This document shows positions 32,375 through 49,216 of a stretch of 64,000 nucleotides of DNA, piece by piece (positions within the stretch are counted from its first letter, which is position 1; every line of letters starts with the position of its first letter). The notes under the pieces were generated by a model. The model was given only the letters and a program-made list of their open reading frames with translations. It made no database searches and was not told the origin of the DNA. A program made the translations under genes and the position numbers. Source of the DNA: SAR202 cluster bacterium (GTDB lineage: Bacteria; Chloroflexota; Dehalococcoidia; Lucifugimonadales; UBA2985); NCBI GenBank assembly GCA_009391535.1, contig VFHP01000012.1, forward strand, positions 1 to 64,000. The letters run 5' to 3'.

Positions 32375-32992
32375 ATGGATAAAACATACGCAAATATGAT
32401 TGATTTATATCACGTTAAAAAGAACCTAGAATCATACCGTCCTGTAATACACTCAAGCGAAAACCCAAAAATACCAGCCATAAATGCAGCTGTTATAGCT
32501 TTCATCTATTACAAAAAAGAGGATCTCTGCATTTTACTAAATAAAAGGTCCCTGTTAGTGGAACATCATAAAGGTGAGATCTCATTTCCTGGTGGTGTCA
32601 TGGACTGTACAGATAAGTCCATATTAGATACTGCTCTTAGAGAAGCAGAGGAGGAAATGGGAATTCAGCCTGCTCACGTTGATATCATATCTCAACTTAG
32701 CAGTATAACCACTCGAACTAATTTTTTAATAACGCCATTCGTTGGAATAATACCTGAGGGCTACCCTTTCAATATAAACAAAGAAGAAATAGACCAAATA
32801 CTAGAAATTCCATTGACGAATTTGATAAAACAGCTTGAACAGCAAATAAGTTCAAAAAATACCCGAATCCCAGAAAACAGCTTCCATTACAGTTACGAAA
32901 ATCATATTATATGGGGTGCAACCGCTAACATACTTTCGGAGCTTTTATTCGCTGTCTCTAAAACTAAACTACAAGAGGATATCAAAACTTGA
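32375..32992 (+). CDS. Nudix hydrolase, CoA diphosphatase (NudL-like) type
   Basis: This 205-residue Nudix protein has the UPF0035-type sequence LLNKRS...HHKGEISFPGG directly before the Nudix helix ALREAEEEMGI. That combination marks the CoA-pyrophosphatase branch, which cleaves CoA to 3',5'-ADP and phosphopantetheine. The ATG at 32375 is chosen over an in-frame TTG at 32366; neither has a clear ribosome site. Its stop overlaps the start of the VWA gene by four bases (TTGA). Position between an AAA+ ATPase and its VWA partner, downstream of coaE, is unusual. CoA as substrate is an inference from motif and context. Confidence 0.82.
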   Translation: MDKTYANMIDLYHVKKNLESYRPVIHSSENPKIPAINAAVIAFIYYKKEDLCILLNKRSLLVEHHKGEISFPGGVMDCTDKSILDTALREAEEEMGIQPAHVDIISQLSSITTRTNFLITPFVGIIPEGYPFNINKEEIDQILEIPLTNLIKQLEQQISSKNTRIPENSFHYSYENHIIWGATANILSELLFAVSKTKLQEDIKT

Positions 32993-35900
32993 AATATTCT
33001 GAAGATTTCAAAAAATTCCCGAAAGAGCTATCGGACTCATACAATACAGTACAAAGCGTAGCTTCTAGGGTCCTCACTGAAGAAGAATTCTTGGCATGGG
33101 AAGAATCAGGGTTAAACATTGCTAACAGAGGAGCGCGGGCATGGGAATCAGCGGTGGAATATTTTAGAGCCACTCCAGACATTCTAAACAAACTACCATT
33201 TGTGCATCTTAAACAGTGGGCATACTGGGGAAGTTTAATAGCAGAAGAATCTCATTTTGCATCGATAGCCTACTTCAAAGCCAGCAGACATGTTAGTGAT
33301 CAGATAAAACCTTGGGACGTTGCAGATTGGGCTCAATTAGGTAAAAAGCTCCTTGGAAAAGATTCGCGGTCTGGAAAATTAAGTGTCTCATATTTCGAAA
33401 ACAGCGCAGAGATCCTCAAGGTTTTAACATTCAGCGAGTTCAAGCAAATAATATTACTGGTAGAAACAATATCTGAACACAACACTGACGAGGCTGCTAA
33501 ATTCATCGACTGTGCATCAGAAGTTTTACCCGTTCTTAAAGAAGATACACGACCTTGTTTGTCATTGATATCGAATCTTGTGAGAAACCATTGGCAACAG
33601 TCTACGAAATGTCTGTCCATGATGAGTAGTGTGCTTGCCAGAATAGACACCGTAGAAAGATCTCGGTTTTTGTCTTTATCAGCACGCATTTCTGAAGAAC
33701 AAAATACTGACGTCGTAAGTTTCTTACATGAAAGCTCATTGGCTCTTGGTTCAGTAGACAATTACGTACACGTCAATATCTTAAACATGGCTGATAGATT
33801 GTCCAGAACTAACCCCAACATAGTATTAAACTACTTAAAAGGTGTGCCTAAAGCGCTTAGGAGAATAAGCATAAACCAGTTGGAATTATGGTATGACTTG
33901 GGTATGTCTATACTTAAAGACAATGAAACAGCCGGAATAGCATTTTTTAGTGGAGAGTCTTCCCGTTCAGAAGACATGCTGGAGAAACTATCAGTGGGAG
34001 TAGAACTGTCTAAAGTGAAAGACATAATGCGACTATACTGTAGAGCATTGTCCGCTATAGACATTGACATTTCACCTGAAGAACAAGGTGACGATGCTCA
34101 TGGAAAGAGCTGGGTGCCAATGGATCAGATGCTGGCTGAAGGAGCAAACATATATTTGCCATTTGTATCTGAGCAGTTCGATACGAAAGATGAAAATTTT
34201 GATTGGTTCAAAGTCATGGCTACCCATCAAATAGCCCATCTGGAATTTAAAAGCTTTCAATTCTCTTTTGATACTCCATCAACGCAATACCAAGACATCA
34301 GGGATGAACTTGCCCCAAGCATGAGCGATTTAATATCGGAAGTTGAAATGGCCGACTTCGCTTTGGAAAACGAACAGCAGGGAACTCAACAAGATTTCGG
34401 CATGACGGAAATACAGAGGTTCTTTGCTATATTCAAAGATAGACCACTAGCTCGAGACATATTCACAGCAGCAGAAGATTACAGACTAGATCATAGAGTA
34501 ATGGTTGACTATCCTGGCATAGCTTCATCCTATAAAAGGGTGCAGTTACAATCAATATCCAACCGACTCCCCTTGTCTGAATTACCTTCTCAAGAAGCAT
34601 TAGTCGAAATATTAATAAGATTCAGTCTTCAACAAACTGGAACACTGCAAATCCCACAGAAATACATCCAGTTAACATCTGCTATGTGGAAAATAATTAG
34701 ACCCTTGTCGACTAAAGGATCCATCGTAGAAGACAGTGCAGAAGCTACCATACGGCTCTACGAAATTATTTCAAATATGAGCAACCAAAAACCTAACGAA
34801 GAAGATGAAGAACAAGACTTTGAAATGGACCCATCGGATGGAGAAGGTGACAATGAAGATTCCGAAGATGAATCCACCTCCAACTCTTTAGATTCTGAAA
34901 CTGAGGAAGGATCCGATAACATACAACAATATCAATCACCACAACAAGTCGACTATAGAGGAGAATTCAAACCTGAGTTGATGCAAGCGATATCCATGAT
35001 AAAAGACTACCAAAAAGAACACGAATCTACCGAAGATGGCATATCTAAAGAGAAGATAGAGCAAATCTTATCAGAAGCCGATTCTCCTCCATCTGAAGCA
35101 GAAAAGATTGATCCAGATGCCAAGGGTACGTTCGTAAGTGAAATGGCACAAGACTTGGATTCTAAAGGTAACCCACAAGCCGTGTTGCAACAAAGTTCAT
35201 ATGCTTATGATTCGACCTACGATGATGAAGACCGAAGAGGTCCGCTAGAAGCTAATGATCCGGATTCATTTCTGTACGACGAATGGGACTATCGCATATC
35301 GGACTACAGAAATCGTTGGTGCCTCTTGAGAGAAAAGGAAATGGCAGAAGGGGATTCAGCATATTTCACTACTACATTAGACGGATATTCAAGCCTCGCG
35401 GGCCAAATTAGACGCCAATTTGAATTGATGTCCCCACAAGGACTACAGAAGATGAAAAGACAACAAGATGGGGATGAATTGGAATTGGAAGCGGTGATAG
35501 AAGCTATGGTTGATAAAAAATCAGGTAGTACCCCTTCGGAAAAAGTCTATCTGCGCCGTAACAAAGTCCAAAGAGATGTGGCTGTAGTGTTTCTCTTGGA
35601 CATGAGTGCGTCGACTGCCGAGGCAATAGACGAAACAAGAAGATTAGCTGATGAATGGGATGCCCCCGACGACCCTTTAGAGTATATGTTCTGGCTCAGA
35701 AGCAGACGGGGTGAAGGAATGCGAAGAAGCTACAAGAGAATCGTAGACCTAGAAAAGGAAAGCATAGTACTACTAATTCACGCACTAGAAACTATAGGTG
35801 ATACGTATGGTATTTATGGTTTCTCAGGTTATGGTAGAGAAAACGTGGATTTTTTCGTTATAAAAGATGTCCAAGAAGCCCTTAGCGAAAGAGTAAAACG

Positions 35901-36261
35901 AAGAATAGACAAAATATCTCCCCTACAAGCCACTAGGATGGGACCCGCAATACGCCATGCAACTAGCAAGCTGGCTGGTATAGATGCTAGAACGAAATTT
36001 TTGGTACTAATCAGTGATGGAAGACCCCAAGATAGGGGATATAGCAGAGAAGGTGTTGAAAAAGAATATGCCATACATGACACCAGAATAGCGTTAACAG
36101 AAGCCCGGAGAGACGGCGTCACACCGTTTTGCCTAACTGTAGACAAAGAAGGACATGACTATCTAAGGGCTATGTGCCAAGATATGGGATACGAAGTCTT
36201 GGCTGATATTAACAACCTACCTAGAAGATTACCTACTCTATACAGACATCTGACAGTTTAA
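32989..36261 (+). CDS. Large VWA-domain protein, CbbO/NorD-like, with N-terminal helical repeats
   Basis: This 1090-residue protein is the likely partner of the CbbQ-type ATPase. Residues about 30-350 form imperfect helical repeats of about 40 residues with a recurring pattern of tryptophan/glycine, alanine and aromatic positions (for example WAYWGSLI...AYFKAS and WAQLGKKLL...SYFENS). A THQIAH sequence at residues 412-417 sits where CbbO/NorD proteins usually have HExxH-like THEGAH. An acidic low-complexity linker spans about 600-660. The C-terminal VWA domain has an intact MIDAS: DMSAS at 871-875, TRMGPA and ISDGRPQD. The start is TTG at 32989, overlapping the Nudix stop. Confidence 0.85.
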   Translation: MKYSEDFKKFPKELSDSYNTVQSVASRVLTEEEFLAWEESGLNIANRGARAWESAVEYFRATPDILNKLPFVHLKQWAYWGSLIAEESHFASIAYFKASRHVSDQIKPWDVADWAQLGKKLLGKDSRSGKLSVSYFENSAEILKVLTFSEFKQIILLVETISEHNTDEAAKFIDCASEVLPVLKEDTRPCLSLISNLVRNHWQQSTKCLSMMSSVLARIDTVERSRFLSLSARISEEQNTDVVSFLHESSLALGSVDNYVHVNILNMADRLSRTNPNIVLNYLKGVPKALRRISINQLELWYDLGMSILKDNETAGIAFFSGESSRSEDMLEKLSVGVELSKVKDIMRLYCRALSAIDIDISPEEQGDDAHGKSWVPMDQMLAEGANIYLPFVSEQFDTKDENFDWFKVMATHQIAHLEFKSFQFSFDTPSTQYQDIRDELAPSMSDLISEVEMADFALENEQQGTQQDFGMTEIQRFFAIFKDRPLARDIFTAAEDYRLDHRVMVDYPGIASSYKRVQLQSISNRLPLSELPSQEALVEILIRFSLQQTGTLQIPQKYIQLTSAMWKIIRPLSTKGSIVEDSAEATIRLYEIISNMSNQKPNEEDEEQDFEMDPSDGEGDNEDSEDESTSNSLDSETEEGSDNIQQYQSPQQVDYRGEFKPELMQAISMIKDYQKEHESTEDGISKEKIEQILSEADSPPSEAEKIDPDAKGTFVSEMAQDLDSKGNPQAVLQQSSYAYDSTYDDEDRRGPLEANDPDSFLYDEWDYRISDYRNRWCLLREKEMAEGDSAYFTTTLDGYSSLAGQIRRQFELMSPQGLQKMKRQQDGDELELEAVIEAMVDKKSGSTPSEKVYLRRNKVQRDVAVVFLLDMSASTAEAIDETRRLADEWDAPDDPLEYMFWLRSRRGEGMRRSYKRIVDLEKESIVLLIHALETIGDTYGIYGFSGYGRENVDFFVIKDVQEALSERVKRRIDKISPLQATRMGPAIRHATSKLAGIDARTKFLVLISDGRPQDRGYSREGVEKEYAIHDTRIALTEARRDGVTPFCLTVDKEGHDYLRAMCQDMGYEVLADINNLPRRLPTLYRHLTV

Positions 36262-36284: not shown

Positions 36285-37514
36285 TTAATTAGCTACCAAT
36301 TTTAGAAGTGTCATGAGTGCCTCATTGGTGGCTCTTTGTTTCACCAAAAGCCTTTCCTGAGGTAAATTCAGTTCCTTAACGTGAGTACCATCGGTAGATG
36401 ATATACCTATATACACTTTGCCCACAGGTTTATCTTCAATAGTTGACGGGCCTGCCACACCGGTAGTTGATATACCAATATCAGAGCCTACAAGGTCTCT
36501 AACTGATCTTGCCATATCCGCTGCAACTTCTGGGCTAACAGTCCCGAATTTATGTATCAAATTACTGTCGACACCAAACGTTTGTTTTAAGACTCCAGAA
36601 TAAGCCACCATACCACCTTTGAAATAACCTGAACTGCCGGGGGGTTGTGTTAACGCATTGGATAATAAACCTCCCGTACAGGATTCCATAACAGCGACCG
36701 TAAGATTGTTGTTTAATAGATTGCTCGCTAGAACACTCTCAACAGTATCTTGATCAAACCCCCATATAAAATCTCCAATAGATCCATCTAATGCTACTTC
36801 CAGTTTATCGAGCGATGACTTAGCCTGCTGTTCGCTCTCTGCGGGAACTCTAATCCTCACGTCTACACCAAGGGGTTGGGCATACATCCCCCACTCAAAG
36901 CCAAAAGAATCAATAATTCCCGATATCTTCTCATTCAAAAGGGATTCACCCAAACCATAGGTCCTTATATTCCTAGTGTATATTAATGAGTTGTTGTACC
37001 TCTCAAGTAAAGAAGGAAGTACTTCATGTTGCCACATTCTGTGCATCTCTCTTGGAGGACCAGGCATAACAATCAAGTTCTTGTTATCTATATTTACCCA
37101 CCAACCCGGGGCTGTACCCACTTCATTCTTTATGCCACAGGCAGAAGGAATCAAATTAGCCTGTTTTATATTTGTATCAGACATATTTATTCCTCGTCTG
37201 ATGAATATTTTTCTCATGTCTTCAAGAGATTCTTGATCTATGTACATGGATTCATTTAACAATTGAGATATTGATTCTCTGGTGATATCGTCATCGGTAG
37301 GCCCAAGCCCTCCCGTTGTTATTATTATATCTGAACGGTTAACGGCTTCTTTCAGGACAGATACAAGCTCTTCCTGGTTATCCCCAACCTGAGAAATGCG
37401 AACCAATGTAATGCCAATCCTTGGTAATTCTTTTGCAATATAGTTAGAATTGGTATCTACCAGTTCCCCCATAAGAAGTTCGGACCCAATAGCTATGATG
37501 TCTGCTCTAAAAAT
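36285..37514 (-). CDS. cinA: CinA family nicotinamide-nucleotide amidase, apparent ATT start
   Basis: This 409-residue CinA protein has an N-terminal MoeA-like/COG1058 domain (IIAIGSELLMGELVDTNS, ITTGGLGPTDDDIT, VMPGPPREM) and the C-terminal NMN amidase domain (ESCTGGLLSNAL, GGMVAYS, STTGVAGP). It recycles or cleans up nicotinamide nucleotides. The first ATG (37472) lies after the conserved ADIIAIGSELL strand. In frame, an ATT codon at 37512-37514 preceded seven bases upstream by GAGGGGG gives the full N-terminus; an in-frame TGA is at 37527-37529 and no ATG, GTG or TTG lies between. It ends the minus-strand ABC/DUF4340 cluster. Confidence 0.88.
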   Translation of the reverse strand: MFRADIIAIGSELLMGELVDTNSNYIAKELPRIGITLVRISQVGDNQEELVSVLKEAVNRSDIIITTGGLGPTDDDITRESISQLLNESMYIDQESLEDMRKIFIRRGINMSDTNIKQANLIPSACGIKNEVGTAPGWWVNIDNKNLIVMPGPPREMHRMWQHEVLPSLLERYNNSLIYTRNIRTYGLGESLLNEKISGIIDSFGFEWGMYAQPLGVDVRIRVPAESEQQAKSSLDKLEVALDGSIGDFIWGFDQDTVESVLASNLLNNNLTVAVMESCTGGLLSNALTQPPGSSGYFKGGMVAYSGVLKQTFGVDSNLIHKFGTVSPEVAADMARSVRDLVGSDIGISTTGVAGPSTIEDKPVGKVYIGISSTDGTHVKELNLPQERLLVKQRATNEALMTLLKLVAN

Positions 37515-37540
37515 ATTTAAGCCCCCTCACATAGCAACAA

Positions 37541-38545
37541 TTATTCGAAGTATTCGGCAGAAGCGGATTCTATCCCTTCAACCCATTCAACGTTTACTGT
37601 AAATACATCTGCAATTATGTATTCACCTCTTTCAGTTTGAACGAAATAATTATCTCCGCCTTCAGTCTTATCACCTATTCTAAATCTGTATTGTGAAACT
37701 TCGACTGCCTCTTCAAGTTCGTCTTCATCAGTATCTAGTCTTTCAGTTTGAACGAACACTACCATGGAAGGATTCTCTAATCCATATTGAGCAACTCCTA
37801 TTGGTTCATATGCTTCTAGGACCTGAGTGGGCGTCTCAAAGGCACTCAAGACTTTTAACATGGATGTTTCTTCAATTTCAATAGGCTGATTGTCTTTACC
37901 CAAGAATTGCCATGAATTGGCTTCTTTATCCTTGAAAAACGCAATACCTTTGTAACCTTCATCTGGATTCCCTCTAGTTATCTTGATTTGCGTAATTGTT
38001 TCTATTTCGATATCGTATAACCATTCAGGATAAGGTGGTTCCTCCAACAATCTGGTCATCACTTCTTCCCATCCAGAAAAGATAGTGAACACTTCATTAG
38101 TGTTATCGATCTGAACATAAGTGTTTTCGCCATCTGGTGTATAAGATCCGATAAGTATTCTTATATCATTACCATTTTTCAACCCTATAGCTATATTTAA
38201 GTTGGGATCAGCCAAACCATATTGAGATAAGTCACTTGGATTAGGGTCAATTAATCTCCGACTCTTCGGACCACTGAGTAGAAGATCCACTCCTATCCAA
38301 CGATCCAGACCCACAGGATATCCATCAGATTCACCTATGTGCCAATGTTTATCATCACCTAACGAGAATTTTGCCTTCTCTCCTGTTCTATCAATTTCTA
38401 TGGTGCTTATATCTGCCATATCAACACTGTAGAACCATGGAGCATCAACCTTAGTTTCTGGTTGGACTTTGGCCTGAACAAAAAACACATAACCTGCAAC
38501 CATTAAAAGCAGCACGACTAGAATGATGGAAGTGCGAATGTTCAT
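37541..38545 (-). CDS. DUF4340 domain protein
   Basis: This 334-residue protein begins with one hydrophobic segment (about residues 6-25), so it is probably anchored with its bulk outside the membrane. The rest matches DUF4340 repeats: paired segments of the type WFYSVDMADISTIEI / LSQYGLADPNLNIAIGL and LYDIEIETITQIKI / QYGLENPSMVVFV, so two homologous halves are visible. No catalytic residues are recognisable. DUF4340 genes usually follow GldG-like genes, as here (nine-base gap), and may form part of the exporter complex. Function is unknown. Confidence 0.82.
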   Translation of the reverse strand: MNIRTSIILVVLLLMVAGYVFFVQAKVQPETKVDAPWFYSVDMADISTIEIDRTGEKAKFSLGDDKHWHIGESDGYPVGLDRWIGVDLLLSGPKSRRLIDPNPSDLSQYGLADPNLNIAIGLKNGNDIRILIGSYTPDGENTYVQIDNTNEVFTIFSGWEEVMTRLLEEPPYPEWLYDIEIETITQIKITRGNPDEGYKGIAFFKDKEANSWQFLGKDNQPIEIEETSMLKVLSAFETPTQVLEAYEPIGVAQYGLENPSMVVFVQTERLDTDEDELEEAVEVSQYRFRIGDKTEGGDNYFVQTERGEYIIADVFTVNVEWVEGIESASAEYFE

Positions 38546-48055: not shown

Positions 48056-49154
48056 TTAATCAGATATAGAAGATTTAAGATAAGCCCGTAATAACGGGGT
48101 TAGCTCTCCATCTAATACCCCAGAAGTATCAGAGGTTTCGTACCCACTTCTATGATCCTTTATCATTTTGTACGGATGCAAAACATAGCTTCGTATCTGA
48201 TTGCCCCACCCTGCAGCAACATGTTCACCTTTCAATTTAGCCTGTTCATCATCCCTCTTCTTTGATTCAAGCTCCATGAGTCTCGCCCTCAGAACTTTCA
48301 TGGCATATTCCTTATTTTGAAATTGGGAACGTTCGTTTTGACAACTAACCACAATACCAGTCGGATTATGAGTTATCCTCACTGCTGTAGAATTTTTCTG
48401 TACGGATTGACCCCCATGTCCACTAGCTTTAAAAACATCTATTCTTATATCATCTGGGTTTATGACGATATCTATTTTATCGTCTGCCTCGGGTAAGACC
48501 TCTATCAACGCAAATGATGTATGCCGTGCATGATCAGAATCGAAAGGTGATATGCGCACTAACCTGTGGACACCTCGGTCGGCTCTTAGATAGCCGTAAG
48601 CATATTTGCCTTCAACGCTTATGTAAGCGCTCTTAATACCAGCTTCGTCGCCGGGTGAGGTATCTATAATACTAGCAGTATATCTTGCCCTCTCAGCCCA
48701 TCTCAAATACATTCTGAGAAGCATTTGGGCCCAATCCTGAGACTCAGTGCCTCCAGCACCGGCATGAACTGCCAATATAGCATTTCTGTCGTCATTTGGC
48801 CCTGAAAGGAGTAAATCAAATTCCCTGTCGGACAATTCTTGATCAATATCACTAATGTCTGAGGTTAGAGAATCTATAAGTGAATCGTCTTCTTCGTCCA
48901 GTGCCAATTGCGCTAGTTCTCTTAAATTATTTGATCTATCAGCCAAACCAGTCCAAACTTGAATCACTTGCTTCAATTCAGAGAGTTCCATCATTATAGA
49001 TTGGGCTAGTTTGGAGTCATCCCAAAAGCTTGGATCACTTGCCTGCATTTCAATGTCTGATATTTTAGTTCGCTTTCCAGATACGTCAAAGTCGCACCAT
49101 AATATCAGAAATACGATCAACTAACTCTTGTGATCGAGCATTCAAGTCTTGCAT
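48056..49154 (-). CDS. prfB: Peptide chain release factor 2, with programmed +1 frameshift
   Basis: RF2 recognises UAA and UGA stops. The ATG at 49154 (AGGGAG about seven bases upstream) opens a 22-codon frame ending MVRL-TGA; the remainder is in the +1 frame, beginning DVSGKRTK. The shift site reads CTT-TGA-C, the classic prfB sequence, so the full product is about 365 residues. The stop-recognition tripeptide SPF and the peptidyl hydrolysis motif GGQ (in SGHGGQSVQKN) are present. It is convergent with the PIP synthase gene and divergent from thrS. Confidence 0.95.
49085..49100 (-). other. prfB programmed +1 frameshift site
   Basis: Read on the minus strand the site is ATG GTG CGA CTT TGA C. 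The slippery CTT (49089-49091) precedes the in-frame TGA (49086-49088); slipping by one base reads CTT then GAC. The internal Shine-Dalgarno-like element is only GGTG, three bases before CTT, weaker than the AGGGGG of the E. coli gene. RF2 scarcity promotes the shift, giving autoregulation. Confidence 0.9.
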
Positions 49155-49216
49155 ACAAAATCTCCCTTTTCTCAACGAAATCTTTAAGGGCTTAAACAAA
49201 AATATTATTTACCATT

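Follow-up and report, generated by a model that had tools for sequence, protein, structure and literature searches.

A cinA gene of an uncultured Chloroflexota bacterium, in the 64,000-nucleotide window (the whole stretch of DNA analyzed here), has no canonical start codon and is probably started at ATT. Comparison with related genes suggests an ordinary cinA whose TTG start has been lost or misread. The inherited start was most likely the TTG at 37511-37509, now TTT after one G-to-T change at 37509 (in minus-strand reading), and the ATT one codon upstream is the most likely point of initiation, a reading in which we place somewhat more confidence than doubt. A regulatory reading of the ATT is unsupported. 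The features concerned are collected in Table 1.

Table 1. Features of the cinA start region and its neighborhood (positions in the window)
Feature	Position	Strand	Remarks
Probable near-cognate start ATT	37512..37514	minus	Codon -3 before conserved Ala; residue 5 of open frame
TTT at aligned start position	37509..37511	minus	Codon -2; residue 6 of open frame
First in-frame canonical codon, ATG (Met19)	37470..37472	minus	Internal, inside conserved LLMGEL motif
ATG directly before in-frame TGA	37527..37532	minus	No usable open frame
Strong Shine-Dalgarno-like TGAGGGGG	37522..37529	minus	Overlaps in-frame TGA; -11.3 kcal/mol
cinA open frame	37526 down to 36285	minus	413 codons, intact
cinA CDS if read from ATT	36285..37514	minus	Stop TAA 36285-36287; from open frame, family models, and Pfam domains
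DUF4340 gene, upstream of cinA	37541..38545	minus (same strand)	Stop 26 bases before ATT
vWA-domain gene, downstream of cinA	32989..36261	plus	Convergent; Pfam

The window lies on contig 12 of a 1.36-Mb assembly (26 contigs, ~90% complete), and its nearest named relatives in a search of genome contigs are metagenome assemblies of Dehalococcoidia, Chloroflexi, and SAR202. Its GC content is 41%, versus 57-65% in three relatives of the same family; the lineage is AT-drifted. The cinA frame scores 419.7 bits with NF001813 (cut-off 379) and 365 bits with TIGR00200 (cut-off 243.15), and the three CinA domains follow one another in order, all above their cut-offs: MoCF_biosynth (PF00994), CinA_KH (PF18146), and CinA (PF02464). 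The conserved CinA motifs that we checked are intact. The order DUF4340-cinA with a convergent vWA gene is kept at L002, L003, and L004, which indicates that the window locus is orthologous, and in the tree the window CinA groups with its family with support of 100/100. By these measures the gene is a full-length cinA of the ordinary kind, in synteny with its counterparts in related Dehalococcoidia; its family name implies a putative NMN deamidase activity.

Read on the minus strand, the frame runs TGA (37529-37527) GGG GGC TTA AAT ATT (37514-37512) TTT AGA GCA GAC ATC ATA GCT ATT GGG, and the translation after the in-frame TGA is G G L N I F R A D I I A I G S E L L M. The initial annotation had described a gap in canonical codons between this TGA and the N-terminal strand, and had placed the strand ahead of the first ATG. 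Both descriptions are exact on re-reading: taken directly from the frame, the interval up to the conserved cinA N-terminus contains no ATG, GTG, TTG, or CTG, and ATG 37472-37470 encodes residue 19. No near-cognate codon other than the ATT lies between this TGA and the conserved strand; a near-cognate codon is expected by chance at any one given position with a frequency of ~8% (hand calculation for DNA of 40% GC). When the NF001813 match is extended to profile position 1, residue 1 falls on the TTT and not on the ATT.

Two other openings of the frame were rejected. A start at ATG 37472 would cut the first conserved strand, and its Met is invariant within LLMGEL in four family sequences. Reading the TGA as a sense codon, with ATG 37532 as the opening, is at odds with the 12 of 51 window ORFs that end in TGA and with the presence of prfB (RF2). 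The ATG-TGA at 37527-37532 overlaps the cinA Shine-Dalgarno sequence, has none of its own (+0.1 kcal/mol), and is probably a chance occurrence. The prfB gene (48056-49200, minus strand) has an apparent ATG start upstream of the listed ORF and a CTT TGA C site, which we take to be a programmed +1 frameshift site.

Among the genes of the contig, cinA stands alone in this respect. Curated NCBIfam models were scanned against 49 of the 51 window ORFs and 20 ORFs from the rest of the contig (the vWA gene was assigned by Pfam only), and a gene was counted if its model match began at profile position 5 or lower; ORFs without an N-terminal model were excluded, as was prfB, with a match from position 15 onward. 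Of the 48 genes so counted, 47 carry a canonical codon no later than the modeled N-terminus, cinA being the only exception. TTG is the first start codon in 17 of the 51 window ORFs.

Of 250 genomes in the order, 142 have cinA at an E-value of 1e-75 or better. N-termini were read in 90 of these 142 genomes (the own genome, L002-L030, and 60 stretches) and at 27 genome-contig loci, some of them from the same genomes. The 117 loci gave 99 distinct recognized N-termini, 98 besides that of the window; L144 (TTG at codon -2, read separately) and L051 (match beginning at residue 63) were not recognized. Codon -2 before the conserved Ala is ATG in 47 of the 98, TTG in 39, and GTG in six, so that 92 of the 98, or 93 of the 99 other cinA genes with L144 included, have a canonical codon at this position. 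The six exceptions (L006, L007, L009, L087, L088, and L108) have one somewhere between codons -1 and -8, and the window is the only case that lacks any. By this comparison the ATT is not a conserved regulatory start: either it is a lineage-specific stand-in backed by a strong Shine-Dalgarno sequence, or the TTT beside it is a consensus error or a strain variant.

The three same-family genera with cinA read TTG AAG, TTG AGA, and TTG AAA, against TTT AGA in the window. The initial annotation had held that an ATG in place of the ATT in all close relatives would refute it. This applies by half: the same-family genera do start at a canonical codon, TTG, but the codon that differs is the adjacent TTT. 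At L003 the sequence is ATC TTG AGA where the window has ATT TTT AGA, and this near-cognate codon ahead of a TTG means that the ATT by itself proves little. In a fourth same-family genome (G002), we detected no cinA of comparable score and no vWA neighbor. A search for same-species copies found none in viral contigs, and the genome contigs gave only same-family and more distant kin.

If the base is real, ATT is a better candidate than TTT, since AUU is a documented weak start codon and we know of no documented UUU start. The ATT start of the initial annotation survives in part: it is the best remaining start if the base is right, but it is not conserved, and relatives start one codon later. 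Initiation would have moved one codon upstream to the ATT, where fMet-tRNA would pair at the first two positions only. The strong Shine-Dalgarno sequence UGAGGGGG would support this weak codon, and so might ribosomes that terminate on the DUF4340 gene, 26 bases before it. The product, beginning fMet-Phe-Arg-Ala-Asp, would exceed that of most relatives by one residue and be synthesized at a low level. We infer from the sequence that the base is real, that the ATT is decoded with low yield, and that it is subject to the IF3 discrimination expected at any near-cognate start. Against an ATT start, a single wrong base would explain the whole case, the nearest cinA among the compared genomes being 52% identical, and switches to AUU are very rare in evolution. 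In a survey of close genomes, such switches number one among 61,358 AUG starts, one among 5,080 GUG starts, and none among 2,468 UUG starts (PMC5622118).

The pairing of UGAGGGGG with the anti-Shine-Dalgarno sequence (-11.3 kcal/mol) exceeds in strength that of all but one of 45 window genes, the anti-Shine-Dalgarno sequence being assumed canonical, as the 3′ end of the 16S rRNA was not found in the assembly. The sole 16S rRNA match (L062 and L063; G000:C18:1-1350) is in two pieces and ends at model position 1387 at a contig end. When the upstream bases of cinA were shuffled, 70 of 5000 shuffles reached -11.3 kcal/mol. The GAGGGGG that the initial annotation placed seven bases before the ATT is exactly there, at 37528-37522, and in the predicted fold the ATT and most of the Shine-Dalgarno sequence are unpaired. 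From the duplex, the gap is six bases to the ATT and nine to the TTT, spacings that other window genes also show, and 11 of 92 cinA relatives with ordinary starts have an equally strong Shine-Dalgarno sequence. The strength of this element therefore does not single out the ATT. In the three same-family genera, the values are weaker: -5.7, -4.3, and -2.9 kcal/mol. Among cinA relatives, the median is -8.5 kcal/mol for TTG-started genes and -6.3 kcal/mol for ATG-started genes (P = 0.0002, rank test, uncorrected for kinship), in agreement with the compensation reported in PMC5622118.

The main competitor of the ATT start, clearly the less likely of the two but a real possibility, is that codon 37511-37509 is TTG in the natural population, as in its relatives, and serves as an ordinary start; the T at 37509 would then be an error in the consensus of the metagenome assembly or a minority strain variant, and the ATT incidental. 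The TTT differs by a single base from the TTG seen in the three same-family genera, NF001813 residue 1 lies exactly on the TTT codon, and 37509 ends a run of five T; yet the window is free of ambiguous bases and its long essential genes are intact. The frequency of TTG starts in the window also suits an error or variant, as does the ATC before the true TTG at L003, which suggests that a near-cognate codon preceding the start is nothing special, while the canonical starts kept by the other 47 genes tested and the AT drift, under which real G-to-T changes are favored, point the other way. Either event is rare; long divergence, AT drift, and the undamaged genes of the window favor a real change over an error.

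A start lost without efficient replacement, with cinA in the first stage of decay and only trace initiation at the ATT or TTT, seems improbable. The gene appears dispensable in the order: genomes such as G019, G031, and G040 (95-97% complete) keep the vWA gene and have no cinA of comparable score. Since cinA appears dispensable, weak initiation at the ATT would also be tolerated. The window frame and its checked motifs are intact, however, and the Shine-Dalgarno sequence is strong. The CinA branch of the window is long (1.37, versus 0.13-0.26 in sister genera), but so is that of LigA (0.83, versus 0.14-0.25), and the acceleration is thus not specific to cinA. Relaxed selection confined to cinA was looked for through identities and trees: LigA is accelerated like CinA, InfC is not, and Dxr is intermediate; purH was left out as a tree control (50% identity in two of three family genomes, perhaps another version of the gene). 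A long branch common to CinA and LigA gives no clear sign of cinA decay. Across several near-complete genomes, the vWA gene is present without a cinA of comparable score, and cinA has apparently been lost repeatedly.

The infC gene of the same genome served as an internal control. It lacks a canonical start, its sequence there being ATA CCA AAA GAA TAT; the ATA, at about 1495-1500 of L061 (G000:C23 near 85677), is the likely start. We sampled infC in 25 genomes of the order, two of which gave no infC match, and one of the 23 loci (L069) was unreadable. The start position is near-cognate in all 22 readable genomes (ATA in 17, ATT in two, ATC in two, and GTA in one), and in 19 of the 22 genes the nearest 14 codons, or those as far as the stop, include no canonical one. 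Near-cognate starts are therefore probably used in this organism, and the method recognizes a conserved one. By the same comparison, the cinA ATT does not resemble a conserved near-cognate start as seen in infC. Window cinA and infC have in common the lack of a canonical start, a near-cognate codon behind a Shine-Dalgarno sequence, and an expected sensitivity to IF3; the difference is that the near-cognate position of infC recurs throughout the readable genomes, whereas the ATT start of cinA occurs in one genome only.

This bears on the hint of infC-type control by IF3 in the initial annotation, which finds no backing in the comparison: the ATT is not conserved, and three same-family genera use TTG at the next codon. 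Control of cinA by IF3 is possible, though nothing specific points to it. It is very unlikely that in this AT-drifted lineage cinA has passed from TTG to a true ATT start, compensated by a strengthened Shine-Dalgarno sequence, and that CinA output thereby tracks the level of free IF3 through the discrimination that governs infC.

Least probable, and very unlikely, is a base missing from the G run (37526-37522) that hides an upstream TTG at 37540-37538 or 37537-37535, a frameshift that the initial annotation had raised against the ATT: that frame is stop-free from these TTG codons to the conserved strand, but it needs an extra G, would give a protein about ten residues longer than in nearly all relatives, whose start is codon -2, would place the strong GAGGGGG inside the gene and not as a Shine-Dalgarno sequence, and supposes an indel in a G run, which is unusual in short-read consensus.

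An ATT start of cinA would be a rare event of a known kind, and it is no new mechanism. The pcnB gene of Escherichia coli is said to begin at AUU, in a 2002 study by Binns and Masters that is experimental by its title. Like cinA, it is a nonribosomal gene in which the AUU is expected to limit translation, whereas the cinA case is known from sequence alone. Near-cognate starts of infC include AUA in Staphylococcus aureus (PMC13009471) and ATT in E. coli (PMC5472188). In the former paper, the S. aureus genes cvfC1 (AUU), ccpN (AUA), and citZ (AUA) reach ~10% of the AUG level (reporter, poor medium) and combine a near-cognate start with an extended Shine-Dalgarno sequence, as cinA does (PMC13009471). 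The citZ AUA is restricted to one strain lineage, like the cinA ATT, whereas conservation across species is seen for cvfC1 and ccpN; these starts were mapped by Ribo-Ret, with reporter measurements of yield, in contrast to the ATT of cinA, read from sequence. The GTC start of sigR in Streptomyces, repressed through IF3, is likewise an unusual chromosomal start missed by gene callers, but it is found in 32 of 34 species and has a demonstrated regulatory role, neither of which applies to the cinA ATT (PMC5472188). A literature search found no case of cinA with an ATT or AUU start, and a search on Dehalococcoidia start codons found no such cinA either.

If the ATT start is true, window cinA shows in nature how a gene can outlive the loss of its start codon by way of an adjacent near-cognate codon. 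A gene caller restricted to ATG, GTG, and TTG would truncate the window CinA, and it would mis-start infC, with its mostly ATA starts, across the order. A second start-codon shift at the cinA locus is seen at L108 (genome G083), where codon -2, the usual start position, is ATT and an ATG two codons upstream is served by a Shine-Dalgarno sequence of its own; L022, L102, and L106, from the same genus, have ATG at codon -2.
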